This document shows, piece after piece, positions 14,418-29,800 of a stretch of 64,000 nucleotides of DNA. A program made the position numbers and the translations under genes. Positions within the stretch are counted from its first letter, which is position 1. Every line of letters begins with the position of its first letter. Below the pieces are notes generated by a model. It searched no databases, was not told the DNA's origin, and worked only from the letters and a program-made list of their open reading frames with translations. This DNA is from Umezawaea endophytica (GTDB lineage Bacteria > Actinomycetota > Actinomycetes > Mycobacteriales > Pseudonocardiaceae): contig NZ_JANYMP010000003.1 in the NCBI RefSeq assembly GCF_025061645.1, positions 186,001 through 250,000 of the forward strand. Direction: 5' to 3'.

Positions 14418-15658
14418 CCACGACCGCGCCCAGGTTCGGCGTCAACTACACCCCGTCGCAGGACTGGATGTTCCAGTGGATGGCCGTCGACCCCGACGCC
14501 GTGCGCGCGGACTTCGAGGCCATCGCCGGGCTCGGCGTCGACCACGTGCGGGTCTTCCCGCTGTGGCCCGTGCTGCAACCCAACCGCACCCTCATCCGGC
14601 AGCGGGCCCTCGACGACATCGCGCTGGTCGCCGACGTCGCCGCCGAGTTCGACCTCGACATCGCGGTCGACGTCGTCCAGGGCCACATGTCCGGGTTCGA
14701 CTTCGTGCCCGCCTGGCTGGTCAACTGGCACGACGGCAACATGTTCACCGACCGGCCCGCCGTCGAGGCTCAGGCCGCGCTCGTCGCCGCCGTCTACGAC
14801 GCGGTGCGGGAGCGGTCCAACTTCCTGGGGCTGACGCTCGGCAACGAGCTCAACCAGTTCCAGCTCCCCAACCCCGCGGCGATGCCCGCCACGAGCGACC
14901 AGGTGCGGCACTGGCTGACCTCGCTGCTCGACGCGCCCCGCGACCGGGACCCGCGCCACGTCCTCGCCCACAGCGAGAACGACCACCTCTGGTACCGCGA
15001 CGACCACCCGTTCCTGCCCGTGCACGCCGCCCGCCTCGGCGACCTGACGACCGTGCACTCGTGGATCTTCAACGGGACGGCCGCGCGGTACGGCGCGCTC
15101 TCGCCGCAGTCGGTGCGGCACGCGGAGTGGATGATCGAGCTGTCGAAGGCGTTCGCGACCGACCCCGCGCGGAAGGTGTGGCTCCAGGAGGTCGGCGCGC
15201 CGTCGATGAACCTCGCCGAAGCGGAGATGCCCGAGTTCTGCGCCCGCACGATCGAGGCCGCGCTCACGACCACCGACCTCTTCGCGATCACCTGGTGGTG
15301 CTCGCACGACGTCTCGCGGTCGCTCGCGGACTACAAGGACCTGGAGTACTCCCTCGGCCTCCTCGACACCGAGAACCGGGTGAAGCCCCTCGGCCGCCGC
15401 TTCGCCGAACTCGTCGCCGAGTCGAAGCGCGCCACCCCGCCGCGGCCCCGCACGGTCGGTGTCGTCGTCGACGTCGACGAGCGGGACCTGCCGCTGTCGC
15501 GCGCCGCGCTCGGCCCCGGTGGCGCGATCTTCGAACGCTGGCACGAGCTGCGCGAGCGGGGCGTCGACGTCGCGGTCGTCACGAGCACCACGGCGGCTTC
15601 CCCGACGGCGCTGGAGGTGCGGGGCATCCGCGAACTGGACCGCGTCGCGGTGGTCTGA
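14414..15658 (+). CDS. GH5-type cytoplasmic glycosidase (possible GH5_18-like beta-mannosidase)
   Basis: 414 residues, a TIM-barrel clan-A glycosidase: the acid/base Glu is in LGNELNQF and the nucleophile Glu in VWLQEVGAPS; Arg and His at the expected strand ends are in HVRVFPLW and TVHSWIF. No signal peptide. Overall form resembles GH5_18-like enzymes, some of which cleave the Man-beta-1,4-GlcNAc core of N-glycans, but subfamily assignment by eye is uncertain. The TTG start at 14,414 follows GAGGAA and overlaps the LacI stop, so it is translationally coupled to the repressor. Together with GH125 and GH3 it fits intracellular degradation of a mannosyl glycan. Confidence 0.75.
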   Translation: MTTTAPRFGVNYTPSQDWMFQWMAVDPDAVRADFEAIAGLGVDHVRVFPLWPVLQPNRTLIRQRALDDIALVADVAAEFDLDIAVDVVQGHMSGFDFVPAWLVNWHDGNMFTDRPAVEAQAALVAAVYDAVRERSNFLGLTLGNELNQFQLPNPAAMPATSDQVRHWLTSLLDAPRDRDPRHVLAHSENDHLWYRDDHPFLPVHAARLGDLTTVHSWIFNGTAARYGALSPQSVRHAEWMIELSKAFATDPARKVWLQEVGAPSMNLAEAEMPEFCARTIEAALTTTDLFAITWWCSHDVSRSLADYKDLEYSLGLLDTENRVKPLGRRFAELVAESKRATPPRPRTVGVVVDVDERDLPLSRAALGPGGAIFERWHELRERGVDVAVVTSTTAASPTALEVRGIRELDRVAVV

Positions 15659-15661
15659 GCC

Positions 15662-16594
15662 TCACACCGTGAGCACGATCTTGCCCCTGGCGCGGCGGCT
15701 CTCGCTCAGCACGTGCGCGGCCGCCGCGTCCCGCAGCGGGAAGGCAGCCGCCAGCGGCACGGTGAACCGGCCCGCCCGAGCCAGCGCGGCGGCCACCTCC
15801 AGCCCGTGCAGGCCGGTCTCGGTCGTCGCTCCGGGCCCCGCGCCGCGGGAGAACTCCACCCCGTGCTCGGCCGCCCGCAGGTCCGCGATGGACACCACCC
15901 GGTCCGGTCCCCCGGCGATCTCGACGAGGTCCGGCAGCGATCCGGACCCGGCGCAGTCGAGTACCGCGTCGACACCGCGCGGGACCAGTGCCGCGACCCG
16001 CTCGGCCAGACCGGGCCCGTAGGTGGTCGGGATCGCGCCCAGCTCCGCGAGCAGGTCGTGGTTGGGTTCGCGGGCGGTGCCGACGACCGTCGCGCCGCGG
16101 GCGACGGCGAGCTGGACCACGACGGTGCCGACCCCGCCCGCCGCGCCTTCCACGAGCAGCGTCGTGCCCGCGCCGACCCCGAGCCTGTCCAGCGTCCTGG
16201 TGGCGGTCTCAACGTTGGCGGCCGCCCCGCCCGCCTGCTCCCAGCTCCACGAGTCCGGCTTGGCGGCCCAGGCCACCAGCACCGCGTGCTCGGCCGCCGC
16301 GCCGCCGAACCGGGCGAGGTCGACCATCCCGAACACCGCGTCGCCGATCCCGACGTCGGTCACCCCCTCACCGACCTCGTCGACGATCCCGGCGGCGTCG
16401 ACGCCGAGCAGGTGCGGCAGCGTGAGCGGGACGCTGTCCCGCACCCGCCCCGAGCGCAGCGCGCACTCGCCCGGTGTGAGGCCCGCGGCGCGGACGGCGA
16501 CGCGGATCTCCCCTGGGCCTGCGTGGGGTTCCTCGACCTCGGCCACGGTCAGCACGTCGGGAGGACCGTATTCGGCGAACAACAAAGCGATCAT
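15662..16594 (-). CDS. zinc-free medium-chain quinone oxidoreductase
   Basis: 310 residues: GroES-like N-terminal half and NAD(P)-binding half with GAAGGVGTVVVQLA (about 140-153). The zinc-binding cysteines of alcohol dehydrogenases are absent, as in the QOR/NADPH:quinone reductase group. It would reduce quinones or enones with NADPH in the cytoplasm. ATG start; divergent from a TetR regulator 49 bases away, which is its probable regulator. Its end lies 3 bases from the convergent GH5 gene. Confidence 0.85.
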   Translation of the reverse strand: MIALLFAEYGPPDVLTVAEVEEPHAGPGEIRVAVRAAGLTPGECALRSGRVRDSVPLTLPHLLGVDAAGIVDEVGEGVTDVGIGDAVFGMVDLARFGGAAAEHAVLVAWAAKPDSWSWEQAGGAAANVETATRTLDRLGVGAGTTLLVEGAAGGVGTVVVQLAVARGATVVGTAREPNHDLLAELGAIPTTYGPGLAERVAALVPRGVDAVLDCAGSGSLPDLVEIAGGPDRVVSIADLRAAEHGVEFSRGAGPGATTETGLHGLEVAAALARAGRFTVPLAAAFPLRDAAAAHVLSESRRARGKIVLTV

Positions 16595-16623
16595 GCGACC
16601 GAAGCTAGCGGAGCACCTCGGCC

Positions 16624-16641
16624 CTCTCCCTAAAGTGAGAG
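16624..16641. promoter_or_regulatory. candidate TetR operator
   Basis: Imperfect palindrome CTCTC-CCTAAAGT-GAGAG in the 49-base gap between the oxidoreductase and the TetR gene, ending 3 bases before the TetR start. Position fits autoregulation and control of the oxidoreductase. Short arms, so modest confidence. Confidence 0.35.
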
Positions 16642-16643
16642 CG

Positions 16644-17270
16644 GTGACGAAGCGATTGCCCCACAACCTCCGGTCCGACGCGCGGGACAACCGCGACCGC
16701 ATCCTGGACGCGGCCAGGGCGACCTTCGCGGAGGAGGGTCTCGACGTCTCCCTGCGCGAGATCGCCCGGCGTGCCGGGGTCGGCGCGGCGACGCTGTACC
16801 GCCACTTCGAGACGAAGGAGGCGTTGGCCACGGCGGTGCTCGCCGAGCGGATGGCCGCCTGCGCGGCGGTCGTCGACGAAGGCTTGGCCGATCCCGATCC
16901 GTGGCGCGGCTTCCGCACCGTGGTCGAGAAGGTCTGCGCCCTGCACGCCGTGGACAGCGGTTTCACCTCGGCGATGCTGTCGACGTTCCCCGGAGCCGTC
17001 GACTTCGCGGGGTTCCGGGAGCGCGCGCTGCGCTCCGCCGACCGGTTGGCCCGGCGAGCCGTGGCGAGCGGACACCTGCGGCCCGACTTCGTCCTCGATG
17101 ACCTGATCATGGTGATCATGGCGAACAGCGGCATCCGCGCCACGTCGCGGGAGGCCGCCGCGGCCGCTTCCCGCCGGTTCGCCGCGCTGCTGATCGACTC
17201 CCTGCACAGCGGTTCGCGCAGCACCCCGCTGCCCCCTGCGGTCCGGCTGCCGATCACGACAGCTCTCTGA
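16644..17270 (+). CDS. TetR-family regulator
   Basis: 208 residues. N-terminal TetR helix-turn-helix (NRDRILDAARATFAEEGLDVSLREIARRAGVGAATLYRHF, in pieces) and an all-helical ligand domain. GTG 16,644 is preferred because GAGAG lies just upstream; another GTG 9 bases earlier is possible. Divergent from the quinone oxidoreductase, which is its likely target, responding to an electrophile or quinone (inference). Confidence 0.88.
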   Translation: MTKRLPHNLRSDARDNRDRILDAARATFAEEGLDVSLREIARRAGVGAATLYRHFETKEALATAVLAERMAACAAVVDEGLADPDPWRGFRTVVEKVCALHAVDSGFTSAMLSTFPGAVDFAGFRERALRSADRLARRAVASGHLRPDFVLDDLIMVIMANSGIRATSREAAAAASRRFAALLIDSLHSGSRSTPLPPAVRLPITTAL

Positions 17271-17343
17271 CCGGGCAGTCCTTGAGCGGCAACGGATACC
17301 GGGAGGCCGTGGCTAAACTGTCGCGATGATTCCTGGGGGAACC

Positions 17344-19521
17344 ATGAGCGCCGCGGCGCACGACGGCCGGGCGGCCAGGGCCGTCGCGGTGGTGGGCCGG
17401 GGCTGCGTCCGCCACCGGTACGTCGTGCTCGGCACGTGGGTGCTGCTGGTGCTGGCGCTGGTGGTGGCCGCGCGGGTGATCGGCACGCCGACGGACAACG
17501 ACGTGAGCCTGCCGGGCACCGACGCCCAGGTCGTGCGGGACCTGACGGCGTCGTCGGCGACGCCGCTCACCGGCGGGACCGTGATCCTGGTGGCCCCGGA
17601 CGGGCGGCTGGACGACGAGGCCCGCGCGGGCGTGCTGGCCGCGACGTCGGCCTCCCTGCGGGGAGCCGACCACGTGACGACGGTGAAACCACCCTCCACG
17701 CAGGACGGGTCGCTGTCCGCGGACGGCCGCACCGGCTGGTTCGCGGTGGGCCTGGACGTCCGCCGCGCGGAACTCACGAAAGCCATGGCGCACACCGTCA
17801 CCGACGCCGCCCGGCCCGCCGCCGACGCGGGCCTGCGGGTGCTGCCCGGCGGGGCGCTCGCCCAGGTCGTCGACGGATCGGGCAGCACCGGCGACGAGTA
17901 CTTCGGCCTCGCACTGGCCGCCCTCGTGCTCTTCCTCGCGCTCGGCGGCCTCGTCGGCGCGGCGCTGGCGCTGCTGACCGCCGCGCTCTCGGTGCTCGCG
18001 ACGCTGGAGGTCGTCGGGCTCGCCGGGAACCTGACCTCCATGCCCGCGCAGGCGTCGACCCTGGCCCTCATGGTCGGTCTCGGCGTCGGCATCGACTACT
18101 CGCTGTTCCTGCTCAGCCGGTTCCGCGCGGTGATGCGGTCGGGGCGCTCGGTGCCGGAGGCCGTCGAACGCGCGGTCGCCGACTCCGGAACGGCGGTGGT
18201 CGTCGCCGGTGTGACGGTCGCGGTCGCGCTCGCGGGACTGGGCCTGACCGAGGTCCCGCTGCTGCAAACCCTCGCCTGGACGTGCGGGACGGCCGTCCTG
18301 TTCGCCGTCCTCGCCGCGCTCACCCTCCTCCCCGCGCTGACCTCGCTCGCCGGGGAGCGGCTCGCCCGCGGCGGCAAGCTGTACAACAGGCTGGCCCGCC
18401 GCACCGGCTCCGGCGGTTTCTGGGCGCGCCAGGCCGACCGCGTCACCAGGCGGCCCCTGCTGGCGGGCGGGCTCGCGATCGTGGTGCTGGCACTGCTCGC
18501 CGCACCGGCGACCGACCTGCGCCTCGGCCAGCTCGACGCCGGGTCCTCGCCGGAGTCCACCGCCGTCCGGCAGGCGAACGACGCCGTCTCGGCGGCGTTC
18601 GGCCCCGGCGCGGGCACACCCCTCACCGTGCTGGGCAGACTGCCGACGCCGATCACCGACGAGCGCGATCCCCGCGTGCCCCCGCTCGTGGCGGTGGTGC
18701 GGGCCCAGCAGGGGGTGGCCGCCGTCGGACGGCCGACGCCGTCCGAGGACGGACGGGTCGTCACGGTCCAGGTGATCGCCTCGACCGCGGGCGGCGACCC
18801 GGCGACGGCGGACCTCGTCCACCGCCTGCGGAGCCAGTCCGTGCCGGACATGACCGTGCACGTCGGTGGCAGCGCCGCCGCCAGGGTGGACCTCGCCGAC
18901 CGGGTCACCGCCAAGCTGCCGCTCGTCATCGGGATCGTGCTGCTGCTGTCGGTCCTGGTGCTGCTGCTGGCTTTCCGGGCCCCGCTGCTCGCGCTGAAGG
19001 CCGCCGTCATGGACCTCATCTCCATCGGAGCGGCCTACGGCGTCCTCACGGCGGTGTTCACCTGGGGGTGGGGCGTGACGTGGATCGGGCTCTCCGGCCC
19101 GGTCCCCATCCCCAGCTTCGTGCCGCTCATGCTGTTCGCCCTGCTGTTCGGCCTGTCGATGGACTACGAGGTGTTCCTGCTGAACGAGGTCCAGCGGAGC
19201 TGGAGGCGAACGGGGGACAACCTGCGCTCGGTCCGCGAGGGCCTGCTCGGGACCGGCCGGGTGATCACCGCGGCGGCGGCGATCATGGTCGGGGTGTTCC
19301 TCGCGTTCGTGCCGAACAACGACCCGACGATCAAGATGTTCGGCGTCGGCCTGGCCGTCGCCATCGCCGTGGACGCGACCGTCGTTCGCTGCCTGCTGGT
19401 CCCGGCCACGATGGCGCTCCTCGGCGACCTCAACTGGTGGACGCCGGGCCGCGGACGTGCACGGTCCGAAGTGGACGGTGGAGTCACAGGGCCCGGACGA
19501 CAGCGCCCAGGTGCGAGGTGA
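17344..19521 (+). CDS. MMPL/RND-family transporter
   Basis: 725 residues with the duplicated MMPL plan: a first membrane helix (about 28-48), an external domain, five to six helices, a second external domain and six helices. The functional core motifs are visible as GLGVGIDYSLFLLSRFR and GLSMDYEVFLLNEV, with the Asp-Tyr pairs that carry protons. Such proteins export lipids or small hydrophobic products. ATG 17,344 was chosen over ATG 17,326 because GGGGGAA sits directly upstream. The last 38 bases overlap, head to head, the end of the condensation-type acyltransferase gene, and in mycobacteria MmpL exporters pair with PapA acyltransferases of that fold; a link to the operon at 19.5-25.4 kb is inferred. 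Confidence 0.9.
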   Translation: MSAAAHDGRAARAVAVVGRGCVRHRYVVLGTWVLLVLALVVAARVIGTPTDNDVSLPGTDAQVVRDLTASSATPLTGGTVILVAPDGRLDDEARAGVLAATSASLRGADHVTTVKPPSTQDGSLSADGRTGWFAVGLDVRRAELTKAMAHTVTDAARPAADAGLRVLPGGALAQVVDGSGSTGDEYFGLALAALVLFLALGGLVGAALALLTAALSVLATLEVVGLAGNLTSMPAQASTLALMVGLGVGIDYSLFLLSRFRAVMRSGRSVPEAVERAVADSGTAVVVAGVTVAVALAGLGLTEVPLLQTLAWTCGTAVLFAVLAALTLLPALTSLAGERLARGGKLYNRLARRTGSGGFWARQADRVTRRPLLAGGLAIVVLALLAAPATDLRLGQLDAGSSPESTAVRQANDAVSAAFGPGAGTPLTVLGRLPTPITDERDPRVPPLVAVVRAQQGVAAVGRPTPSEDGRVVTVQVIASTAGGDPATADLVHRLRSQSVPDMTVHVGGSAAARVDLADRVTAKLPLVIGIVLLLSVLVLLLAFRAPLLALKAAVMDLISIGAAYGVLTAVFTWGWGVTWIGLSGPVPIPSFVPLMLFALLFGLSMDYEVFLLNEVQRSWRRTGDNLRSVREGLLGTGRVITAAAAIMVGVFLAFVPNNDPTIKMFGVGLAVAIAVDATVVRCLLVPATMALLGDLNWWTPGRGRARSEVDGGVTGPGRQRPGAR

Positions 19522-20671
19522 GCAGACCGGTCGCCTCCCGCGTCCAGCCGACGCCGTCGGCGCTGAAGTGGCCGTGCAGGGCGCCCTCGTCCGTCCTGCG
19601 CAGCCGGATGCCGAGTTCCTGGGCCCTGCCGGTGTCCTTCGGTCCGGCGGCGGCGGTGACCCTGCCCCGGACCGGGCCGAAGTCGACCGCGGCGGGACGC
19701 CCGCTCGGGAGGTACTCGAAGAACGGGACGATGCCCGAACTCACGCCGTGGTTCATCGCGCGGATCTCCCCTGCCGGGAACCGGGCGTGCGCCGAACAGC
19801 CGCGGACCGCGTCCAGGACGCCGCGGTGGTCGCCCGTCCTCGGCACGGTGAGGTAGGACGGCACCAGGCAGGGGCCCGCGACGCGCCGCCAGCGGGGCCG
19901 GTCGCGCTTGCCGAAGATGGTGGTGAACACGAACGTGTCGCCGTCGGGGACCTGCCGGGCCATCCCGTCCGCCACCGCGGCCAGCAGGGTCACCAGCGGA
20001 GTGGTCCGCCGGGCGAGGCACCCCCGTTCGACGCGGGTGAACTCCTCCGCGTCAAGGACTTCCGCGCGGTAGGCGAAGGCCTCGCCCTCCCCCGTGGCCG
20101 CCACACCGGCGAACGACGCCCGCCCGACCGCCCTGTCCCACCAGGCTTCCGCCTCGTCGCGTCCACTTCGGACCACCTCGGCCTCGGCGAGGGCGTAGTC
20201 GCCGAACTGCTCCACCGGGCCCGCCGCCGGAGGACCGCCCACCTGCTCCGCGTACAGCAGGCCGAGGTCGGCCAGCAGGATCCAGAGCGTCTCGGGGTCG
20301 GCGACCAGGTGGTGCAGGTGCAACGACAGGACGTGCGTGTCCGGCCCGGTCGTGGCGAAGCGCACGCGGATCGGGACGTCACGGGCGACGGGCGCGTGCG
20401 TCCAGTCCTCCACCTCGCCCTCCTCCAAGACCTCCAGGCCCGTCCCAGGCGTCGCACGGACGACCTGGCCGTCGCGGGTCACCTCCGTGCGCAGCACCTC
20501 GTGCCGCCGGACGAGGCGGTCGACCGCGACGGCCAACCCGCCGGTGTCCACCGGGCCGCGCAGTTCCACCACCGCGTTCATGGTGAACCACGGGCTGTCG
20601 ACGAAGCCGGGCCTGAGCGCCTCCAGGTCCCAGGCGAACGACTGCCACAGTGAGGTGGGTCGGACCGTCAT
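19484..20671 (-). CDS. stand-alone condensation-type acyltransferase (PapA/NRPS C-domain fold)
   Basis: 395 residues forming one condensation domain without adenylation or carrier domains. The catalytic HHxxxD motif is present (HHLVAD, 120-125) and a degenerate second motif DFGPV stands where DFGWG is usual. The family joins an acyl or aminoacyl group held on a carrier protein to an amine or hydroxyl acceptor. The acyl carrier protein encoded in the same operon (24,002) is the obvious donor, and a sugar made by the glycosyltransferase a plausible acceptor (inference). ATG start overlaps the stop of the glycosyltransferase gene (ATGA). Last gene of the six-gene operon; its end overlaps the convergent MMPL gene by 38 bases. 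Confidence 0.8.
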   Translation of the reverse strand: MTVRPTSLWQSFAWDLEALRPGFVDSPWFTMNAVVELRGPVDTGGLAVAVDRLVRRHEVLRTEVTRDGQVVRATPGTGLEVLEEGEVEDWTHAPVARDVPIRVRFATTGPDTHVLSLHLHHLVADPETLWILLADLGLLYAEQVGGPPAAGPVEQFGDYALAEAEVVRSGRDEAEAWWDRAVGRASFAGVAATGEGEAFAYRAEVLDAEEFTRVERGCLARRTTPLVTLLAAVADGMARQVPDGDTFVFTTIFGKRDRPRWRRVAGPCLVPSYLTVPRTGDHRGVLDAVRGCSAHARFPAGEIRAMNHGVSSGIVPFFEYLPSGRPAAVDFGPVRGRVTAAAGPKDTGRAQELGIRLRRTDEGALHGHFSADGVGWTREATGLLTSHLGAVVRAL

Positions 20672-21723
20672 GACGCTCCCGCCAGCACGTGCGAGTAGTC
20701 GGGGACGTCGTCACGGGCGGCCAGCAGCGCCTCGTGCGCCTCGCGGAGCGGGCCGACGTCGAACCCGCTCGCCTTCCAGTCCTCGAAGGACAGACCGAAA
20801 CCCATTCCGCGCCAGAGATCGGCGTTGCTCCGCTCGTGGTCGCCGAACGGGTCGAGGAACACCACCGGGGTCGCCGACCACAGCGAGTCGAGCAGCGTGC
20901 CGCCACCGGGCTTGCTGACCACCGCCAACGCCTCGCGGCACAGGTCGAACGACCCGTGGTGCCCGGTCCCGCGCCGGAACTCGGGCGCGGCTCCCGGTGT
21001 GACCTCGCCGAACGGCGGGTAGCCGTCGTCGAGCCAGGGGAACCAGTCGGGATCCATCATGTGGTAACGAACCCCACCATCCTCATCGGACACGTCGGCC
21101 ACCTCGTAGGCGACGACGTCGAGCGCGAACCCCTGCGCCCGCAGGCCTCCCACTTCCGCGCGGTAGGTCCCCATCCCCCAGCCGCCACCGTGCACCAGCA
21201 ACCGGTCCGCCCGGTCCCGCCACGGCAGCGGCGGTCGCCGCGTGACCGGGATGCTGCACGGGACGCGCCCGGACTCGGCGTGCGCCAGCCAGATCGGCCG
21301 GGCACCGACGTCCGGGGCCCGGCGGAAGGACGGCGACAGGACCGAGTCCACGTGGCACACGTCGACCCGAGGCCGGATGGAGCAGGTGGACAGGTACCGC
21401 TCGACGAGGCGCAGCCAGAATCCCGAGAAGACGACGAACTGCCGGACCCGCATGGTCCGCCAGCGCTCCACCAACGCCGACACGGCCGACGGGTCGACGG
21501 CCGCGACCGGGTCGGCCGCGACCCGCTGGCCCGCCCGTGCCAGCCGGAAGTCCCGGTGGAAGGCCACCTTCATCTCGGCCGTGGTGCGCAGCTTGTGCTC
21601 GGGCAGCAGCCGTTCGAGCACCGACACGGTCGCGTCGACGCCCTGGTCGCGCAACCGGTCCGCCAGCAGCAGGCCGGGGACGTGCACGCCGAGCGCGACC
21701 CCGGACGTGAGGATCTCGATCAC
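20668..21723 (-). CDS. UGT/MurG-like glycosyltransferase
   Basis: 351 residues with a GT-B layout: the first strand and loop at the very N-terminus (IEILTSGVALGVHVPGLLLADRL, in part) and a C-terminal nucleotide-sugar site PGGGTLLDSLWSATPVVFLDP...DHERSNADLW, the His/Ser/Asp-Asn spacing of GT1-type enzymes. Donor and acceptor are unknown. The GTG start at 21,723 is placed where the first beta strand begins; GGGGGCG lies upstream. A mini-frame ends on this start codon (see 21,720-21,776). Overlaps the acyltransferase gene by 4 bases. Confidence 0.75.
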   Translation of the reverse strand: MIEILTSGVALGVHVPGLLLADRLRDQGVDATVSVLERLLPEHKLRTTAEMKVAFHRDFRLARAGQRVAADPVAAVDPSAVSALVERWRTMRVRQFVVFSGFWLRLVERYLSTCSIRPRVDVCHVDSVLSPSFRRAPDVGARPIWLAHAESGRVPCSIPVTRRPPLPWRDRADRLLVHGGGWGMGTYRAEVGGLRAQGFALDVVAYEVADVSDEDGGVRYHMMDPDWFPWLDDGYPPFGEVTPGAAPEFRRGTGHHGSFDLCREALAVVSKPGGGTLLDSLWSATPVVFLDPFGDHERSNADLWRGMGFGLSFEDWKASGFDVGPLREAHEALLAARDDVPDYSHVLAGAS

Positions 21724-21776
21724 CGCGACGCGCCCCCGGTCGACCCCAGCCGGAACGCGGGCAGCAGGTGGGTCAT
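21720..21776 (-). other. 18-codon mini-frame linking two operon genes
   Basis: An ATG overlapping the stop of the dehydrogenase gene (ATGA) opens a frame of 18 codons (MTHLLPAFRLGSTGGASR) that ends in a TGA overlapping the GTG start of the glycosyltransferase (GTGA). It could simply carry ribosomes from one gene to the next, or encode a small peptide. No homology evidence is available. Confidence 0.25.
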
Positions 21777-22762
21777 CGCGCCTCCTGGAGTCCGGTCCTC
21801 CGCGCACTCCGGTGCACGGCCGTCATCACGGCGATCCGTTCGGCCGCCGCGGGCAGTTCACCGCCCCAGGGCGGGCCGCCCGTCAGCCACCTCCCGACCG
21901 CCTTGAGCTGCTCGGTGTAGTACGAGCTCGCCGGGAACCCGATCACCTCCCTGGCTCCGTCCGCGCGCCGGACGACCAGGTTCAGCGGCACGGCGCCGCG
22001 CACCGGCAGCAGGAAGTTCCGCAGGGTGGCGGTGGCCCGGTCGAACACGAACTCGTGAGTGGCCACGTGCCGCTCGCCGACCCGGCAGCGAAGGCGCGCC
22101 ATGCGCCCGTCCGGCCAGGACAGACCGGCGCGGAAGGAGCGGTCGACGCCGTTCGGGCCGTCGAACGCCGACTCGCCGGTCCCGGTGGCGCCGGTGAGCC
22201 CTACCGTCGCCTGGATCGCCTGGAGCCAGTAGCTCGCGGTGTCGTAGAAGATCCCGCCGCCCAGTTCGGGGAGGTCGCGGTAGCCACCCGGCTTCGGCGC
22301 GCCGAAGGTCAACTCGCTGTGGACCGTCCTGAGGTCGCCGTGCCGCCGGTCCGCGATCATCTCCCGGAGCGCGGCCTGCCACGGGTGGCCCGCCGTCGGC
22401 ACCGCCTCGACCACGCGCACGCCGTCGCCGAGGTCCTGGATCTCGGCGAGTTCGTCCGTGTCGAGGCACAGCGGCTTCTCCACGATGACGTGCTTGCCCG
22501 CCCGCGCCGCCCGCAGGATCCACGGGTGGTGGGCGGAGTTGTGCAGGGAGAGGTAGACCGCGTCGACACCGGGATCGGCGAGCAGGTCGTCGTAGTTCCC
22601 GTGGACCAGCGGGATGCGGTTCCGGGCGGCGAACTCCGCGGCGCGCAGCGGATCCCGTGCCGCCACCGCGCGCACCGAGATCCCCTCGACCCCGGCGCTG
22701 GGCCGCACGACGGCCCGCTCGGCGATCCCCGTCGCACCGATCAGCCCGATCTCAAGCCGCAT
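21773..22762 (-). CDS. Gfo/Idh/MocA-family oxidoreductase
   Basis: 329 residues: Rossmann N-terminus (IGLIGATGIAERAVV), the family EKP motif (HVIVEKPLCLD, about 93-103) and an alpha/beta substrate domain with GGGIFYDTASYWLQ. These NAD(P)-dependent enzymes oxidise or reduce sugars, cyclitols and related polyols, often to a keto intermediate that is later aminated or inverted. In this operon it would act on the sugar or cyclitol part of the product (inference). The first 11 bases overlap the end of the ATP-grasp gene. Confidence 0.85.
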   Translation of the reverse strand: MRLEIGLIGATGIAERAVVRPSAGVEGISVRAVAARDPLRAAEFAARNRIPLVHGNYDDLLADPGVDAVYLSLHNSAHHPWILRAARAGKHVIVEKPLCLDTDELAEIQDLGDGVRVVEAVPTAGHPWQAALREMIADRRHGDLRTVHSELTFGAPKPGGYRDLPELGGGIFYDTASYWLQAIQATVGLTGATGTGESAFDGPNGVDRSFRAGLSWPDGRMARLRCRVGERHVATHEFVFDRATATLRNFLLPVRGAVPLNLVVRRADGAREVIGFPASSYYTEQLKAVGRWLTGGPPWGGELPAAAERIAVMTAVHRSARRTGLQEAR

Positions 22763-24005
22763 CCGGCACTCCCCTGGTGCTCATGCCTGCCGCGGCGACG
22801 GCGGCCCTCAGCCGGTCCCGCCAGAGCGGCAGCTCGCCCTGGCGGCAGAAGACGGCAACGTAGACGCGTCCGCCGGGTGAGGTCAGCGCACTCCCGCTGA
22901 GGACCGTCACCCCCGCGTCCTCGCCACCCCGGTAGCTCGCGGCACCGAGGGCGCGCACCAGGTCCGCCACACCTCGGTCCGGCCCGACCACGAGGTCGAG
23001 CTGCGTCAGGTGGCACCGCAACCCGTGGTGCGCGACGCGCAGGTCGAGCGTCCTGGTCAGCAGACCGAGCGAGTGGCGGGCGTTGACCTCCAGCACCGGG
23101 ACCACCCGCCCGTCGTCGAGGAGCATCGAGTCGACGCCGATCGGGCCGAAGTACCCCGTCTCCGCGACGGCCTCGACCACACCGGTGAGCGCGCGGCGGT
23201 AGCCGTCCTCGTCGACGAGCCCCGGTGGCACCGGACCCGACTCCAGGTGCCGGAAGCCCCGGTTGGTCATCGCCTGAACGCCGAGCCACTCCCAGTTCCC
23301 ACCTCGGTCGACCACGAGGTGGCCGGAGAAGTCGTGGCGCTTGGCGAACTTCGGCTGCACGAGCAGCTCGACCCGCTTGCCCGCCTCGACCTGCTTGCGG
23401 AGCACGCGCACGACCGCCGCCAGGACGCCGGGCGTGCCGACCTCCAGGATCGCCCGGCCGGACACCCCGTACGGGTCCTTCACGACGGCTGCTCCGTCCA
23501 CTTCGGACACGGCGGCCACCAGGTCGTCGACGGTGCGCACGACGCGGCCCGCGCCGGGCAGGCCGAGCCGCCGGACCACCTCGTTCGACCACGTCTTGGA
23601 GTTCACCGCGATCACGGCGTCGAGGTCCGGGAGGTCGTCCCAGCCCATCCGCTCCGCCAACGCCACGGTGTCGGGCAGCACCGCGTACGGCACCAGCCCC
23701 TCGGCCTCCCCCATCTGCGCGACGACCGGATCGGGCAGCCGCCGCTCGACCGGTCCTCCCGACGGAGTGCCCGCGTCGACGCGTCCGAAGTGGACACCGG
23801 CTTCCGCGAGCCCGTCGACCAGCGCGGGATCCATGGGGCCGCGGGTGACGAGCAGGTCGCCGGGTCGGCAGAACCCGGCGAGCAGCTCGTCCATCCCCGC
23901 CACCGCGGCACCGCCGCCACCGGGGACCGCGGGCAGCGCGGCCAGGTCAGCCGGGCGCCACCAGGATTCCGCGTCGAACGTGCCGAGCCGGACCCGACCG
24001 CTCAC
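22752..24005 (-). CDS. ATP-grasp ligase
   Basis: 417 residues. The ATP-grasp core is seen as AAVVKDPYGVSGRAILEV (about 194-211), a second lysine-rich strand (LLVQPKFAKRHDFSGHLVV) and the metal-binding VLEVNARHSLG (about 311-321). Members form amide, ester or thioester bonds through acyl-phosphate. Placed directly after an acyl carrier protein gene (GTGA overlap, 4 bases), it may load an amino acid or other acid onto the carrier, as the ATP-grasp enzyme BtrJ does with the carrier BtrI in butirosin biosynthesis; that comparison is by gene order only. GTG start. Confidence 0.78.
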   Translation of the reverse strand: MSGRVRLGTFDAESWWRPADLAALPAVPGGGGAAVAGMDELLAGFCRPGDLLVTRGPMDPALVDGLAEAGVHFGRVDAGTPSGGPVERRLPDPVVAQMGEAEGLVPYAVLPDTVALAERMGWDDLPDLDAVIAVNSKTWSNEVVRRLGLPGAGRVVRTVDDLVAAVSEVDGAAVVKDPYGVSGRAILEVGTPGVLAAVVRVLRKQVEAGKRVELLVQPKFAKRHDFSGHLVVDRGGNWEWLGVQAMTNRGFRHLESGPVPPGLVDEDGYRRALTGVVEAVAETGYFGPIGVDSMLLDDGRVVPVLEVNARHSLGLLTRTLDLRVAHHGLRCHLTQLDLVVGPDRGVADLVRALGAASYRGGEDAGVTVLSGSALTSPGGRVYVAVFCRQGELPLWRDRLRAAVAAAGMSTRGVPDAA

Positions 24006-24262
24006 GAGGCGGCCGGCACCAGGCCGGTCACGAACCTGCCGAACTGCCGCACCGAGCGCAGGTCGTCCAGTTCCAGGTTGTCGTAGTCCAGCTCGACGTC
24101 GAACTCGTCCTCGATGCCGAGCAGGAACGAGATCATCTGCAACGAGTCGACGCCGTACTCGTCGACCAGGTCGGCGTCGTGCGGGATCTCCGCGGGCTCG
24201 GTCCCGTTGGCGAGCACCCCCGCCAGCACCGCCTTGATCCTCTCCTCGACGGCCTCACCCAT
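24002..24262 (-). CDS. acyl carrier protein
   Basis: 86 residues, four-helix carrier with the phosphopantetheine site GVDSLQM; the attachment Ser is residue 40. The acidic helix 2 and following loop (FLLGIEDEFDVELDY) are typical. It is a discrete carrier, not a polyketide-synthase domain, and is encoded one base after the radical SAM gene and overlapping the ATP-grasp gene, so its acyl cargo is probably specific to this pathway. ATG start, GTGTGAC upstream without a strong ribosome binding site, consistent with coupling to the gene before. Confidence 0.92.
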   Translation of the reverse strand: MGEAVEERIKAVLAGVLANGTEPAEIPHDADLVDEYGVDSLQMISFLLGIEDEFDVELDYDNLELDDLRSVRQFGRFVTGLVPAAS

Positions 24263-24263
24263 G

Positions 24264-25439
24264 TCACACCCCGTTCAGGTAGAGGAGGATGCACTTGGAG
24301 CAGACGGGCATCATCCCGTTGGCCGACATGATCTCGCGGACCTGCCGGAAGGACGGGCTCTGCCACAGCTCACCCACCGGGGTGTCGTAGAGGTTGCCCA
24401 CCACGAACTCCGGGAAGAACTTGCACGAGCTGACGTTGCCGTCGGCGTGCACCTCCAGCCGGTTGGACACCGCCAGGCACTTGCTGCGGTGCTGGGCGGG
24501 CCGGGACGTGCCCAGGATGAACTCGTCCACCTCGTCGGGTTCGAGCTGCGGCTGGTAGCGCACGCGGACCCGCCACGGGCGCGAGGCCAGGCGGGCCATC
24601 GACTCGCGCAGCACCGGGAGCTGCTCGGGCGGGAGGCGGTAGGTGTAGGAGTGCCAGGTCGGCTGCTTGGTCTGGGTCTCCGGGCCGAGCCAGGCGAACG
24701 ACTCGGCGTAGAGGCGGTCCATGGCCTGTGCCACTTCCGGGCTGATGTACCAGGGGAACTGGAAGTACACCGTGTTGACGCCGAGTTCCTCGGCCCACTC
24801 CATGAACTCGTACATCTTGCCGACGGTCACGTGGGACACCATGCAGGACAGCGAGAGCTCGCCGTCCCACGCACCGGACCGCTTGAGGTCCAGCATGGTC
24901 CGGATGTTGTCCATGGTCCTGCCGAAGGTCCCCTTGCCGCGCAACGCCTCGTGGTCCTCCCCCAGCCCGTCCAGGCTCACCAGGAGGTTGAGGTTCCGGC
25001 CGATGCGCAGCAGGTCGTCCAGCTTCCGCTTGAGCAGCAGGCCGTTGGTGCACATGTTGACCGTGCGCGGGTACCGTTCGAGCAGTTCGGCGACCTCACC
25101 GAAACGCGAGTGCATCAACGGTTCGCCGCCCCAGAGGAACAGTTTGGACCGCTGCGCGGCCGTCGCGGCGAGCACGTCCTCCACGACCTTCAGGTCCAGT
25201 TCGGTCCGCTGCCGCTGGGGGCTGAAGTCGCGGAAGAAGCCCTGTTCGTTCCACTGGTAGCAGTGGGTGCAGCGCAGGTTGCACCGGTAGGTCAGTTGCA
25301 GGCTCACCTCCTGCGGCAGCGGCGCGGCGTACCCCGGATCGGCCAGCAGGTTCCGGCGAGCCGAGGACCTCATGGCCACCGTGTGCTTGATGTCGGCGAA
25401 CTCCTTGGCGTTCAACGTCCGGGTCGTGGTCGGCCGCAT
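24264..25439 (-). CDS. radical SAM enzyme with SPASM domain
   Basis: 391 residues. The 4Fe-4S/SAM motif is CNLRCTHC (Cys 53, 57, 60), followed by the GGEP motif (WGGEPLM). The C-terminal SPASM region keeps several cysteines (KCLAVSNRLEVHADGNVSSC in part, then PVCSKC), ligands for auxiliary clusters. Family members modify peptides, sugars or cyclitols (oxidation, epimerisation, C-C or thioether bonds). No precursor-peptide gene of obvious type is adjacent; the carrier protein and dehydrogenase suggest a small-molecule or carrier-bound substrate. First gene of the operon, ATG start with a strong AAGGAGG ribosome binding site 5 bases upstream. Confidence 0.88.
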   Translation of the reverse strand: MRPTTTRTLNAKEFADIKHTVAMRSSARRNLLADPGYAAPLPQEVSLQLTYRCNLRCTHCYQWNEQGFFRDFSPQRQRTELDLKVVEDVLAATAAQRSKLFLWGGEPLMHSRFGEVAELLERYPRTVNMCTNGLLLKRKLDDLLRIGRNLNLLVSLDGLGEDHEALRGKGTFGRTMDNIRTMLDLKRSGAWDGELSLSCMVSHVTVGKMYEFMEWAEELGVNTVYFQFPWYISPEVAQAMDRLYAESFAWLGPETQTKQPTWHSYTYRLPPEQLPVLRESMARLASRPWRVRVRYQPQLEPDEVDEFILGTSRPAQHRSKCLAVSNRLEVHADGNVSSCKFFPEFVVGNLYDTPVGELWQSPSFRQVREIMSANGMMPVCSKCILLYLNGV

Positions 25440-26013
25440 CGGCCTCCTTCCTACAGGTGAACTGCGACTCGATGGGCTAGGAGGCGGAGCCCGCGCACAG
25501 CGCTGCCGGGCCGAATTCCGCTGGACGGCCGGCGCGACAACCGGATTCCTCGAACATAGGGCAGCAATGGAAACGCCTCAAGGGGCACCAATTGGCACTT
25601 CTCTGCCCACTCCCGGCACACCGCCCGGACCAGCGCGAACACGCGGATGTTCGGTGTGACAACAGATCTGTCGACTTCGAACGGTTGACACCGACACCCG
25701 CGCACCACTATTGGCGACACGAATGCGCGAACGACAACTCCCGGAGACGTGGTCGGCAAGATCACCCCAGGGGCACCGGACGACAGGTCACAAGCACTCC
25801 GGACGGCCATAACCTTTGAGTGGCAGACGAATGCCAAGTCCATTGTGGCCGATCGCGACGACTCAGGCCTGTCCTGCTGTGGTCTCCTCCGAGGTCGAAC
25901 GGCCCGGTGCGAACCACCGGGCGGCCGTGTCGCGCACGGGACGCTTATGCGATCCGTATCCCGACGGCCATAGCGTTGCGCCGTCCTGTCCACGAAACCC
26001 TTGGGAACACTGA
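25440..26013. other. 574-base intergenic region between divergent units
   Basis: This gap has no credible gene. It is less GC-rich than its surroundings and must hold the promoter of the radical SAM operon (minus strand) and of the S1 protease (plus strand). A TTGACA box lies at 25,685-25,690 with ACTATT 16 bases later on the plus strand, a weak promoter candidate. Several short frames cross it but none has codon bias or a ribosome binding site. No clear long palindrome was seen. Confidence 0.5.
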
Positions 26014-26763
26014 ATGTTGAGACGACTCCTGCTCGCACCGGCGCTGACCCTGGCGGTGATCGCCATGACGGCGGGCCACGCGGGCGCGATCATCGGCGGC
26101 CACCAGGTCGACCAGCGGACGTCCTGGATCGCGTCGGTGCAACGACCGGACGGCGCGCACGTGTGCACCGGCAGCCTCGTCGCGCCGCAATGGGTCCTGA
26201 TGGCGTTCCACTGCACGCTGGCGGGCCCCGACTTCCAGGTCAGGATCGGCAGCCTCGACCGCTCGCGGGGCGGTGAGCTGGTCGGATCCGCGGAGGTCCG
26301 ACCGCACCCGACCGCGTACTTCGACGAGGAGACGCACACCTTCGGCGGCACCGATCTCGCGCTGGTGAAGCTGGACCGACCGGTGCGGTCGACGCCCATC
26401 CCGCTGCTGACGTCCCCACCGCGCAACGGTTCGCCGCTCCGTCTGCTCGGCTGGGGCTACACCTGCCACACCGGGTGCGAGGAACTGCCCGAGCGGCTGC
26501 ACGAGGTGACGGTGCCCGTCGACACCGAGGGCTGCGACACCCCGGAGCGCCAACGCCTGTGCGCGCGGGACCTGGCGCGTGGCGTCGCCGCCGGTGACTC
26601 CGGCGGTCCGGGTGTCGTGCGGACCCCCGGCGGGTGGCGGCTGGCCGGGGTCACCTCCGGAGGCGGCCAGGACGTGGAGACCGGCGAGTACCACACCCTC
26701 CAGCAGGACGTGAGCAGTCACCTCGAGTGGCTCCGCGCCACGATGGGCGCCGGCACGCCGTAG
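26014..26763 (+). CDS. secreted S1-family (chymotrypsin-fold) serine protease
   Basis: 249 residues. A signal peptide of about 25 residues ends in HAGA and is followed at once by IIGG, the sequence that in S1 proteases is the mature active N-terminus, so there appears to be no propeptide. Catalytic triad: His66 (MAFHC), Asp114 (TDLALVKL) and Ser196 (GDSGGP). The Cys pair around His is present. The residue six before Ser is Gly, not Asp, so trypsin-type Arg/Lys preference is not supported. ATG start. Monocistronic, followed by a terminator. Confidence 0.88.
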   Translation: MLRRLLLAPALTLAVIAMTAGHAGAIIGGHQVDQRTSWIASVQRPDGAHVCTGSLVAPQWVLMAFHCTLAGPDFQVRIGSLDRSRGGELVGSAEVRPHPTAYFDEETHTFGGTDLALVKLDRPVRSTPIPLLTSPPRNGSPLRLLGWGYTCHTGCEELPERLHEVTVPVDTEGCDTPERQRLCARDLARGVAAGDSGGPGVVRTPGGWRLAGVTSGGGQDVETGEYHTLQQDVSSHLEWLRATMGAGTP

Positions 26764-26782
26764 CGGCCGCGCCACCGGTTCA

Positions 26783-26822
26783 CGGCGGGCGGCTGAGCAC
26801 CTCGGCCCTCAGCCGCCCGCCG
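26783..26822. terminator. strong hairpin between convergent protease and GH92 genes
   Basis: Inverted repeat GGCGGGCGGCTGAG (26,784-26,797) and CTCAGCCGCCCGCC (26,808-26,821), extended by one C/G pair, with a 10-base loop. Starts about 20 bases after the protease stop and ends 10 bases before the GH92 stop, so it can serve both. Confidence 0.75.
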
Positions 26823-26831
26823 ATCGACCGC

Positions 26832-29672
26832 CTACTGGTAGACCTCCACCTCGTAGACGCGCGTCGTGGCGTTGCCGCCCTGCTCAGCGGCCAGCACGGA
26901 GATCCTGACGTGCCGCCCGGACACCGACACCGCGTGCGTGCTCACGTCCGCCGTGTTGCCCCGCACCTGGGCCGCCGTCGACCACGTCGCACCGTCGTCG
27001 GACACCTGCACGTCGAAGTCCCGCGTGTTCCACCCCGCGTACTCGCCGCCCGCACCGGCGTGCCGCACCACCACGGACCCCAGGGCGAGCTTGCTGCCCA
27101 GGTCCACCTGGAGGTACTTCACCGACGCCGACGAGCAGAACTTGTCCGACGTACCACCCGACACGCTGCCGTTCACCGCCTTGTCGGCGGTCTCGTTCCC
27201 GTTGCACGACGCCGATCCCGACGCGGGCCTGCCCAGCGCCAGGTTCGTCGGTCCCGGCGTGCCGCTGTCGAACGACGGGGGCGCGTCGGCCGCGGCGCTG
27301 CCCCACCCCGTGTCCGGGGTCGTGCCAAGGGTGAACGACAGGGTGCCCCCGGTGGTGGCGAAGGACTCCGGCAGCCACGGCTTGGTCGAGGCGACGCCGT
27401 TGACCGAGAGCCCCTGGACGTACGGCGTCGCGGCGGCGGCGTTGTCGGCGTTGAGGGTCAGGGTGACGCCGTTGGCGCGGTGCACCACGATCCGCGGGAA
27501 CAACGGGCTCGCGACCAGCAGTTCGGCGCGGCCGGGGGCGAGCGGGTACAGGCCCATCGCGGCCCAGACGTACCAGGACGACATGGCTCCCAGGTCGTCC
27601 TGCCCCGGAATACCGCCCGGCGCCGCCGACCACAGCGTGTTGACCACCTGGCGCACGGTCTGCTGGGTCTTGTGGGGACTGCCCGCGAAGGCGTAGAGCC
27701 ACGGCGCGCCGATGGACGGCTCGTTGTTCATCTCCGCCTTGAGCCCACCGGCTCCCGTCAACGCCCAGGTCCCGTCGGCGCGGTGGAAGAAGCTGTCCAG
27801 CTTGGTGGTCGCCGCGGCGTTGCCGCCCATCCGGTCGAACAGCCCGCGCACGTTGTGCGGCACCATCCACGTGTACTGCGCCGCGCTGCCCTCGGCGAAC
27901 CCGTTGCTGCTCGCGGGGTCGAAGGACGGCCAGGAGCCGTTGTCGTTGCGGTCCTGGGCGTACCCGCCGTTGGCCGGGTTGTACACGTTCTTCCAGTACT
28001 GCGCGCGGGCGAGGAACTCGTCACGGGTCCCGTTCTGCCCCAGCCGCGCCGCCAACTGCGAAAGGCCGAAGTCGGCGACGGAGTCCTCCAGGGTCTCCCC
28101 CGCGCCGCCCCACGCGTTGCCGTTGGCCGGGATGTAGTGCTTGGACAGCCACTTGTCCAGCGACGGCCGCTCGCCGACCACCATGACGTTCCACCCGTCA
28201 CGGCTGAGGTCCGCGCTCGTGACCGTGGTCGCGGCCCGCACCATCGACGTCAGCGCGGCCTGCGCGTCGAACCCCGTGCCGCCGAAGGCGTGGATGCTCG
28301 GCAGGGCGGCGTGCGCGGGGTCGCCGGTCATCACGTGGGTGCCGCCCGCGGCGTGGGTCCACCGGTCCCAGACGCCGTTGTTCTGGTCGGCCTGGTTCAG
28401 CAGCGACTGGGCGATGTCGCCGCCGACGTCGGGTCGCACCAGGGTGAGCAGTTGCAACTGGCTGCGGTAGGCGTCCCAGCCGGAGAAGTTGGCGTACTGC
28501 GCCCGCTGGCCGCCCGACACCGCGTGGACCGCCTGGTCCATGCCGGTGTACTGCCCGTTGGTGTCGCTGAACACGTTGGGGTGCAACAGGGAGTGGTAGA
28601 GGGCGGTGTAGAAGGTGGTCTGCTGCGCCGTGGTGCCGCCGGTGATCTCGACGCGCTGGAGTTCGGTGTTCCAGGCGGCGCGGGCGGCCTGCCGCACCGA
28701 GTCGAAGCTGGTGCCCGCCGGGTTCTCGGCCTCCAGGTTGGCCCTCGCGCCCGCCTGGCTCACGAAGGAGATGCCGACCCGCATGGTGACCGCCTGGCCA
28801 GCGGCGAAGGTGACGTACCCGCCGGAGCCGCGGCCCGCGGCCGGGTAGCCGTTGGTGCCGTAGGTGGTGCCTCCCGACGCACTGGTGGTGCCGGGCCGCA
28901 GCGTGCCGTCCTGCCAGGTGCCGGTGCTGGTGAACGGCTGGTCGAACACGGCGTGGAAGTGCAGGGTGTAGTAGCTGCGCCTGCCGATGGCGTTGATGTA
29001 GCCGCAGAAGTTGCCGCTGGTCACCGAGCCGGAGATGGTGCGGTTGGCGGCGTCGACCGTGGTCTGCGCGGCGCTGCTGCCCACCTCGGAGTTCGACGTC
29101 CGCACGAGCAGCGAGGCGGTCTTGCCCGCCGGGTAGGTCCAGCGCGCGGAGGCGGTGCGGGTGGTCGCGGTGAGTTCCGCCCCGATCCCGGAGGCCAGTC
29201 CGACCCGGTAGTGGCCCGCGGTGCCGCTCTCGTCGGCGTGGGCGAAGTCGCTCGCGTACTTCGCGTCGGTGGTGTCCGAACTGGGCGAGGTGTCCACCGC
29301 GCCCGCGTGCGGCAGGAACGGGATGTCGCCGTAGGCGCCCGCGCAGCCGGTGCCGGACATGTGCGTCAGCGCGAACCCCCGGACGCGCGTGGCGTCGTAG
29401 CGGTACCCGCCGGGCGCCGCGGCACGGGTCTGGTCGCCGCGGGTGTTCTCCGGGCTGAACTGCACCATGCCGAACGGGGTGGCCGCGCCGGGGAAGGTCT
29501 CGCCGTGGTTGCTGGTCCCGATCAGGGTGTTCACCAGGCCCGCGGGGTCGGCGACGGCCGCGGCGGCCCGTGCGGGCGGGCTCGCGACCGACGCGATCAG
29601 CAGTGCTCCGGCCGCGAGCGTTGACAACGTTGTCTTCAGCGTAGAGCGGTGTGTCTTGACGAATGGACGCAT
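26832..29672 (-). CDS. secreted GH92 alpha-mannosidase with F5/8 type C (CBM32-like) domain
   Basis: 946 residues: signal peptide (about 1-37), GH92 beta-sandwich N-domain opening with VNTLIGTSNHGETFPGAA, a catalytic (alpha/alpha)6 domain with the acid motif AEMNNEPSIGAPWLY and the base motif QDDLGAMSSWYVWAAMG, and a C-terminal discoidin-like domain (about 800-946, NLALGRPASGSASCNGNE...). GH92 enzymes are calcium-dependent exo-alpha-mannosidases, mostly alpha-1,2, acting on high-mannose N-glycans and fungal mannans. The residues after NEPS (IGAPW) differ from the His-containing form common in alpha-1,2 enzymes, so linkage is uncertain. ATG start with GGAGG 5 bases upstream. It would feed the importer/GH125 locus at 6.6-15.7 kb. 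Confidence 0.92.
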   Translation of the reverse strand: MRPFVKTHRSTLKTTLSTLAAGALLIASVASPPARAAAAVADPAGLVNTLIGTSNHGETFPGAATPFGMVQFSPENTRGDQTRAAAPGGYRYDATRVRGFALTHMSGTGCAGAYGDIPFLPHAGAVDTSPSSDTTDAKYASDFAHADESGTAGHYRVGLASGIGAELTATTRTASARWTYPAGKTASLLVRTSNSEVGSSAAQTTVDAANRTISGSVTSGNFCGYINAIGRRSYYTLHFHAVFDQPFTSTGTWQDGTLRPGTTSASGGTTYGTNGYPAAGRGSGGYVTFAAGQAVTMRVGISFVSQAGARANLEAENPAGTSFDSVRQAARAAWNTELQRVEITGGTTAQQTTFYTALYHSLLHPNVFSDTNGQYTGMDQAVHAVSGGQRAQYANFSGWDAYRSQLQLLTLVRPDVGGDIAQSLLNQADQNNGVWDRWTHAAGGTHVMTGDPAHAALPSIHAFGGTGFDAQAALTSMVRAATTVTSADLSRDGWNVMVVGERPSLDKWLSKHYIPANGNAWGGAGETLEDSVADFGLSQLAARLGQNGTRDEFLARAQYWKNVYNPANGGYAQDRNDNGSWPSFDPASSNGFAEGSAAQYTWMVPHNVRGLFDRMGGNAAATTKLDSFFHRADGTWALTGAGGLKAEMNNEPSIGAPWLYAFAGSPHKTQQTVRQVVNTLWSAAPGGIPGQDDLGAMSSWYVWAAMGLYPLAPGRAELLVASPLFPRIVVHRANGVTLTLNADNAAAATPYVQGLSVNGVASTKPWLPESFATTGGTLSFTLGTTPDTGWGSAAADAPPSFDSGTPGPTNLALGRPASGSASCNGNETADKAVNGSVSGGTSDKFCSSASVKYLQVDLGSKLALGSVVVRHAGAGGEYAGWNTRDFDVQVSDDGATWSTAAQVRGNTADVSTHAVSVSGRHVRISVLAAEQGGNATTRVYEVEVYQ
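29623..29634. promoter_or_regulatory. LacI-operator-like palindrome inside the GH92 signal-peptide codons
   Basis: GACAACGTTGTC is a perfect 12-base palindrome with a central CG, the form of many actinobacterial LacI-family sites. It lies about 40 bases inside the coding region. Chance is possible because it encodes a Thr-Thr-Leu-Ser run. Confidence 0.25.
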
Positions 29673-29800
29673 GCTGCCTCCACGACGTGCAGGGACGGTT
29701 CTCCCTGTCTAGGCCCGCCGAGGTGGTGCTGCCAGGCCCGAAATTTCGCCCGCTGGACCGCCCGCCCGTCCGTGTACAGTGCCCGACCCCGCGCACGGGG

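Follow-up and report, generated by a model that had tools for sequence, protein, structure and literature searches.

The stretch of DNA analysed here, called the window below, comprises 64,000 nucleotides of Umezawaea endophytica and corresponds to positions 186001–250000 of contig 3 in a draft genome of 11.02 Mb and 65 contigs. Six tightly coupled genes, all on the minus strand between positions 25439 and 19484, form a cassette in it, and their open reading frames (ORFs) were found where the original prediction had placed them. In the direction of transcription, the cassette encodes a radical S-adenosylmethionine (rSAM) enzyme with a C-terminal Twitch-type domain (24264–25439, 391 aa), a free-standing acyl carrier protein (ACP; 24002–24262, 86 aa), an ATP-grasp ligase proposed to load this carrier (22752–24005, 417 aa), a Gfo/Idh/MocA oxidoreductase (21773–22762, 329 aa), a glycosyltransferase (GT) of predicted GT-B fold (20668–21723, 351 aa) and a free-standing condensation-type acyltransferase (19484–20671, 395 aa). 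An 18-codon frame (21720–21776) lies between the Gfo/Idh/MocA (Gfo) and GT genes, at the site where related cassettes carry a gene for an APH-type kinase. The rSAM and ACP genes are separated by 1 base; all other junctions are overlaps, of 11 bases between the ATP-grasp and Gfo genes and of 4 bases between the ACP and ATP-grasp genes, on either side of the 18-codon frame, and between the GT and condensation-type genes. The GT start proposed earlier, at 21807, was not upheld, and the GTG at 21723, which matches the starts of the relatives, is the most likely one.

The cassette was compared with 28 other loci, one of which is a second cassette in the genome of the window strain itself; they include loci of Kribbella, a contig labelled Streptomyces and two Streptomyces plasmids. 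The nearest named record by cassette, Umezawaea tangerina (L038), covers the same site as L042 and is not counted here; in parts of L039, L046, L048, L051, L054, L074 and L087, among others, the presence of genes rests on tblastn. The results showed that the rSAM, ACP, ATP-grasp and GT genes occur together in all 28 loci, and the grouping is therefore not a matter of chance. The condensation-type gene was found in 27 loci (absent at L087), with matches at L073 and L074 limited to 37% and 45% of the query length, and the Gfo gene in 25 (absent at L050, L056 and L057). An APH-type kinase gene is present in 27 loci (absent at L087) and lies within the same-strand cassette run in 22, while a clear major facilitator superfamily (MFS) gene was found in 15, with an annotated one in L074 besides. 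The order rSAM–ACP–ATP-grasp–Gfo–kinase–GT–condensation is kept in 13 of the 28 loci. The rest are variants, in which the condensation-type gene precedes the kinase gene (six loci), the Gfo gene is absent (three), the set is shorter (L087) or the kinase and condensation-type genes are turned round (five loci, termed type B). Since the full order recurs in this way, the reading of the genes as an operon is not undone by a lack of conservation. The rSAM protein is the most conserved (68–96% identity to the window) and the condensation-type protein the least (28–81%).

Among 297 genomes of the family, a search with the GT gave matches in 27 (E ≤ 0.001), comprising 23 strong ones (E of 4e-71 or better), one remnant (G125) and three weak ones. 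A profile of the ATP-grasp protein matched eight of 394 genomes sampled across the class, with the cassette in two (the window strain's own and G527) and a distant type in six. No characterised pathway with such a gene set was found in the open-licence PMC literature, in agreement with the original prediction, which had known of none; MIBiG and subscription journals lay outside the scope of this search.

Some loci have surroundings of their own. A LuxR-type regulator is common to type B loci from three genus groups, and genes for a luciferase-like monooxygenase and an LPG-synthase-TM protein also occur in part of these loci. The second cassette of the window strain, on contig 34 (L064/L065, ~70–80 kb), is of type B, with the kinase, luciferase-like monooxygenase and LPG-synthase-TM genes; it adjoins genes for a terpene synthase, an SQHop-cyclase-like protein, a polyprenyl synthase and a P450, and condensation domains of nonribosomal peptide synthetases (NRPS) lie ~20–30 kb away. 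On a linear plasmid of Streptomyces sp. BB1-1-1 (L074), the cassette is preceded by dTDP-glucose genes and followed by deoC, a further Gfo gene, and GT2, second ACP and pyridoxal phosphate (PLP)-dependent aminotransferase genes. At L087, from one genome of another family, a gene for a D-Ala-D-Ala ligase paralogue (13406–14482) overlaps the cassette GT gene, and a second ligase gene, 60% identical, lies elsewhere in that genome; the paralogue could be a protected copy of the target or a replacement for the condensation-type enzyme.

Pfam models supported the rSAM enzyme (Radical_SAM and a SPASM-type model), the ACP (PP-binding), the oxidoreductase (GFO_IDH_MocA, N- and C-terminal, PF01408 and PF22725) and the acyltransferase (Condensation, 56.5 bits). 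For the ATP-grasp and GT proteins no Pfam model above cut-off and no PHROGs match was obtained, and no NCBIfam family stood above cut-off among the matches listed for the six proteins (for rSAM, the best 25 of 74). Residues were aligned for part of the loci, namely 22 rSAM, 21 ATP-grasp, 20 condensation-type and 26 kinase sequences. In the rSAM protein, the CX3CX2C motif (C53, C57 and C60) and four auxiliary cysteines (C321-X12-G334-X4-C339 and C380-X2-C383) are invariant in all aligned sequences, and the chain ends at residue 391. According to PMC6231123, a SPASM domain has seven cysteines in the pattern CX9-15GX4C-gap-CX2CX5CX3C-gap-C, and the enzymes with a Twitch domain include BtrN, MoaA and SkfB. 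The window protein has the first four of the seven SPASM cysteines only, so that, despite the Pfam match, the domain once named SPASM is, by its cysteine pattern, of the Twitch type instead. No RiPP (ribosomally synthesized and post-translationally modified peptide) recognition element was present among the Pfam matches of the rSAM protein, which has ~45 residues before its core, and RiPP maturation is therefore thought unlikely. The operon has no space for a precursor peptide gene, and the upstream region contains 11 ORFs of at least 20 aa; a very small precursor could still lie outside the operon.

The attachment serine of the ACP is kept in 29 of 29 loci, the window included, and K176, D292, E306 and N308 of the ATP-grasp protein are invariant. 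The AlphaFold model of the latter (pLDDT 91.7) has an ATP-grasp fold, and the best chains found by Foldseek were 8ynd (TM 0.74), 8yi6 (BesA, 0.73) and 3wvr (which we take to be PGM1, 0.71), at 16–20% identity; 8ynd, an ATP-grasp peptide ligase, was also the best sequence match in the PDB. The PDB relatives of the oxidoreductase include a sugar 3-ketoreductase and glucose-fructose oxidoreductase. The predicted structure of the GT (pLDDT 85.8) appears to resemble GT-B enzymes of natural product pathways, with a weak overlay on CalG1, SnogD and SsfS6 (TM ~0.5, rmsd ~7–11). In the condensation-type protein H121 and D125 of the HHxxxD motif are invariant, while the first histidine of the motif varies. 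Neither an adenylation nor a ketosynthase domain was detected in the six proteins, as expected of an operon described from the outset as having no adenylation or polyketide-synthase gene. In the surroundings of the cassettes AMP-binding matches were found only at L056 and on contig 34, and NRPS genes are present elsewhere in the genome of the window strain.

The window cassette lacks both the APH-type kinase and the MFS exporter. In the congeners and many other loci, a kinase of the APH family (298–341 aa) is encoded between the Gfo and GT genes; that of L038 matches the Pfam APH model with 87 bits, and D213 and N218 of the HxDxxxxN motif and the second Asp, D231, are invariant in the 26 relatives' proteins. 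The mini-frame earlier described as bridging the larger gap is indeed present at this site in the window (21776–21720), but it is not a mere bridge. Set against L038, L041 and L042, it overlaps Gfo and GT by 4 bases at its two ends, just as the congeners' kinase gene does. Its opening two codons correspond to the start of the kinase, and its codons for HLL to the C-terminal HLL of the kinase. The similarity is short and the place is exact, suggesting that the frame is what remains of the kinase gene.

In the congeners the MFS gene lies before the rSAM gene. The 574 bases upstream of the rSAM gene, earlier read as a promoter region, do contain two blocks (within 25531–25712, minus strand) that match the DNA preceding the exporter gene of the congeners (blastn to L042 3699–3742 and 3904–3989; alignment with L041 and L042) and are probably promoter DNA; the region is, however, also the scar of an exporter deletion. 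Its 32 bases at 25440–25471 (minus strand; 87.5% to L042 5243–5274 by blastn) hold the last 21 bases of the missing MFS gene with its stop codon, followed by the rSAM ribosome binding site. A small ORF in the block matching the congeners was considered and rejected: the window, L041 and L042 each have partly open frames there, and none is common to them in start, frame and stop (wider flanks were not searched for small ORFs), for which reason the block is read as promoter DNA. No orthologue of the MFS or kinase gene was found elsewhere in the window genome, where the nearest proteins have 35% and 52% identity, respectively; between the two congeners these proteins are 90% and 77% identical. 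These comparisons indicate that the exporter and the kinase were deleted in the window strain and that the biosynthetic genes remained intact.

The window strain has lost another kinase as well. Both congeners carry a further, stand-alone kinase in a gene context common to genomes of two other genera (L150, L151, L154 and L159). At the corresponding site on contig 2 of the window genome (L165, 788371/788386), both flanks are kept (94% and 92%) with 14 bases and no kinase between them. The only close kinase in this genome is that of the contig-34 cassette (52%), the next being 36% identical. Among the three congeneric genomes, the window strain alone has two cassettes and alone lacks both other kinases, and the kinase of the contig-34 cassette may cover for the lost one.

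We propose that the cassette is a conserved biosynthetic operon, probably for a carrier-protein pathway to an acyl or aminoacyl glycoside, and that the kinase and exporter of its relatives serve self-protection and were deleted in the window strain; taken as a whole, this proposal has in our judgement about an even chance of being right. The ATP-grasp enzyme would activate an amino acid or another carboxylic acid with ATP and load it onto the free ACP. The Twitch rSAM and Gfo/Idh/MocA enzymes would alter a sugar or cyclitol, or else the carrier-bound acyl group; several small-molecule Twitch enzymes act on sugars, and by analogy a sugar is probably the substrate here too. The GT, to judge from its fold, might make the glycoside, and the condensation-type enzyme might then acylate an amine or hydroxyl of this glycoside with the group carried by the ACP. 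In the relatives, the APH-type kinase and the exporter would protect the producer by phosphorylation and export. The earlier idea of a carrier-bound unit attached to a modified glycoside thus survives in so far as there is one conserved biosynthetic operon with its catalytic residues kept in the sequences aligned and a constant adjacency of ATP-grasp and ACP; the kinase and the exporter of the relatives are an addition to it.

The proposed role of the ATP-grasp enzyme has a rival that we regard as possible, if clearly less probable, in which the protein belongs with the ligases 8ynd, BesA and PGM1 and forms a free dipeptide or amide, and a different acyl group is supplied to the condensation-type enzyme by the ACP. 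The Foldseek and PDB sequence matches given above are in line with it, as is L087, which has a D-Ala-D-Ala ligase paralogue after the GT and yielded no condensation-type gene. However, at all 28 loci the ACP and ATP-grasp genes are neighbours, and the operon has no other gene that seems capable of charging the ACP. The same ATP-grasp family also occurs in nine distant loci, in every one of which a single gene, for a PLP decarboxylase, separates it from a free ACP. All nine contain homologues of the PLP decarboxylase, ACP, ketoacyl-ACP synthase III (KAS III) and acyl-CoA dehydrogenase of L095. When stretches of 20–29 kb were searched with two query proteins, a discrete AMP-binding gene was found in two of them (L090 and L094), an NRPS in L075 and no match in the other six, which again speaks against a free-amide ligase. 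Two of these distant-type sets, L089 and L095, belong to the window genome itself (contigs 16 and 48), and a tryptophan-halogenase gene lies near L089.

It is also conceivable, though we think it rather unlikely, that the kinase is a biosynthetic enzyme that yields a phosphorylated intermediate or product, in which case the window strain would make a dephospho congener. Its presence in 27 of the 28 loci, mostly within the cassette run, fits such a role, but its distribution does not. The kinase was detected in 71 of the 297 genomes (E ≤ 1e-40), 48 of which lie outside the group of 23 with a strong match to the cassette GT, and at 18 of 18 stand-alone places, those retrieved out of the ones listed, no other cassette gene lay within 20 kb (E ≤ 1e-6). 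In genus g20, the full cluster occupies one site in three genomes (L047, L049 and L052), and the kinase stands alone at this site in G125 and G057 as the gene left over where the cluster was lost; G125 also retains a 135-base piece of GT and short terminal fragments of the Gfo and condensation-type genes. The dN/dS of the G125 kinase (0.18–0.29) is like that of kinases in intact clusters (0.19–0.32), which, with the cluster loss undated, is weak evidence. On a tree of 23 of the 27 cassette kinases (without L048, L054, L073 and L074) and 18 stand-alone kinases (17 of the 18 places, without L156, plus L063), the two forms intermix: their labels need nine changes, at least four of them forced by well-supported branches, and the Umezawaea cassette kinases are sister to two stand-alone kinases (support 100/98). 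For the GT, the sole gene tested for comparison, no intact stand-alone copy was found among the 297 genomes. The kinase therefore behaves like a protection gene in its distribution, a pattern that is expected of such a gene and is not proof.

It seems improbable that the cluster in the window is degenerating and about to be lost. Two of its genes are gone, and it occupies a chromosomal place other than that of the congeners' cassettes: in G022 the flank with the GH92 gene maps to 0.61 Mb and the cassette to 10.36 Mb, and the other flank is strain-specific, with no match above 75% beyond short pieces. A fixed chromosomal place for the cassette was accordingly rejected, since its flanks are not syntenic with those of the two congeners. 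The dN/dS values of the window genes against the congeners range from 0.10 to 0.50, and those of the condensation-type gene (0.50 and 0.44, vs 0.40 between the congeners) are slightly raised. Against decay, the six ORFs are intact with their catalytic residues kept, the kinase remnant preserves both overlaps, and, relative to the value between the two congeners, dN/dS is similar or smaller for the rSAM, ATP-grasp, Gfo and GT genes and lower for the ACP gene. Overall, the genes still present show no clear relaxed selection. Assembly errors in the window genome (G000) are a very remote explanation for the missing kinases and exporter, as the genome is a draft of 65 contigs but there is no N in the window or the contig-2 stretch, the losses are three separate ones and new sequence stands at the window junctions.

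Several observations weigh against the carrier-protein pathway with a protective kinase and exporter. Among ORFs of at least 100 aa, no sugar-nucleotide or precursor-supply gene was common to the cassette loci of three or more genera, and the substrates must therefore come from elsewhere. The closest ATP-grasp proteins of known structure are annotated as peptide ligases rather than as carrier loaders, and the slightly raised dN/dS of the condensation-type gene counts on the same side. The kinase labels on the tree are less mixed than random (nine changes vs a shuffled mean of 14.1, with 1 of 500 shuffles as low), and the kinase homologues, at 36–65% identity, may have other substrates. L087 also has no kinase, and the loss of two kinases of the proposed protective family from the window strain fits a self-toxic product badly, unless the contig-34 kinase covers for them.

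A more far-reaching and tentative idea, which we doubt more than we believe, is that the cassettes make a new class of acylated glycoside antibiotics, that the detachable kinase family circulates as resistance in this family of actinomycetes and that the related products of the two cassettes in the window strain share one kinase; on this idea, the sharing of one kinase would be the reason why both the operon-borne and the stand-alone kinase could be lost. An orphan pathway family spread over several genera would extend the known routes to acylated glycosides by one that uses a carrier protein and needs no adenylation enzyme, and its compact gene set suits heterologous expression. The kinase, separable and common in the family, offers a handle on the activity of the product, which would be bioactive if the kinase protects. 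The window strain is in this respect a natural experiment, with the exporter and kinases gone and the biosynthetic genes kept.

Downstream, a gene for an MMPL-family transporter (17326–19521, plus strand) is convergent with the condensation-type gene and overlaps it by 38 bases. It was rejected as a cluster member because no match to it was present in the stretches of the 28 other loci. No Rfam match at gathering thresholds was found in the window.

Among known systems, butirosin biosynthesis (BtrJ/BtrI/BtrK/BtrH) offers one parallel. BtrJ is the loader of the butirosin side-chain pathway, and the cassette ATP-grasp enzyme may correspond to it. Both systems would combine an ATP-grasp enzyme, a free ACP and an acyltransferase acting from ACP to glycoside, a role given to BtrH in PMC10318531, and BtrN is, like the cassette enzyme, a Twitch rSAM protein (PMC6231123). 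The difference is that BtrH is replaced in the cassette by a condensation-type enzyme, a GT and a Gfo enzyme; as to a BtrK-type decarboxylase, no match to the L095 decarboxylase was found at 1e-8 in positions 15001–30000 of the window or in the other cassette loci. The beta-amino acyl-ACP pathways of bolagladin and vicenistatin are also alike in loading an amino acid onto a discrete ACP, but there the loader is an adenylation enzyme, and both a decarboxylase and a dehydrogenase are missing from the window cassette. For bolagladin, PMC7756342 proposes an adenylation enzyme as the ACP loader and names bolagladin and butirosin for carrier-bound aminoacyl chemistry with such decarboxylases. The distant ATP-grasp set resembles bolagladin biosynthesis, with the ATP-grasp enzyme standing where the adenylation enzyme would. 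The ligases 8ynd, BesA and, as we take it, PGM1 share the fold of the cassette enzyme (TM 0.71–0.74 for the best chains) but differ from it at 16–20% identity, and the ATP-grasp enzyme of the cassette is always accompanied by an ACP.

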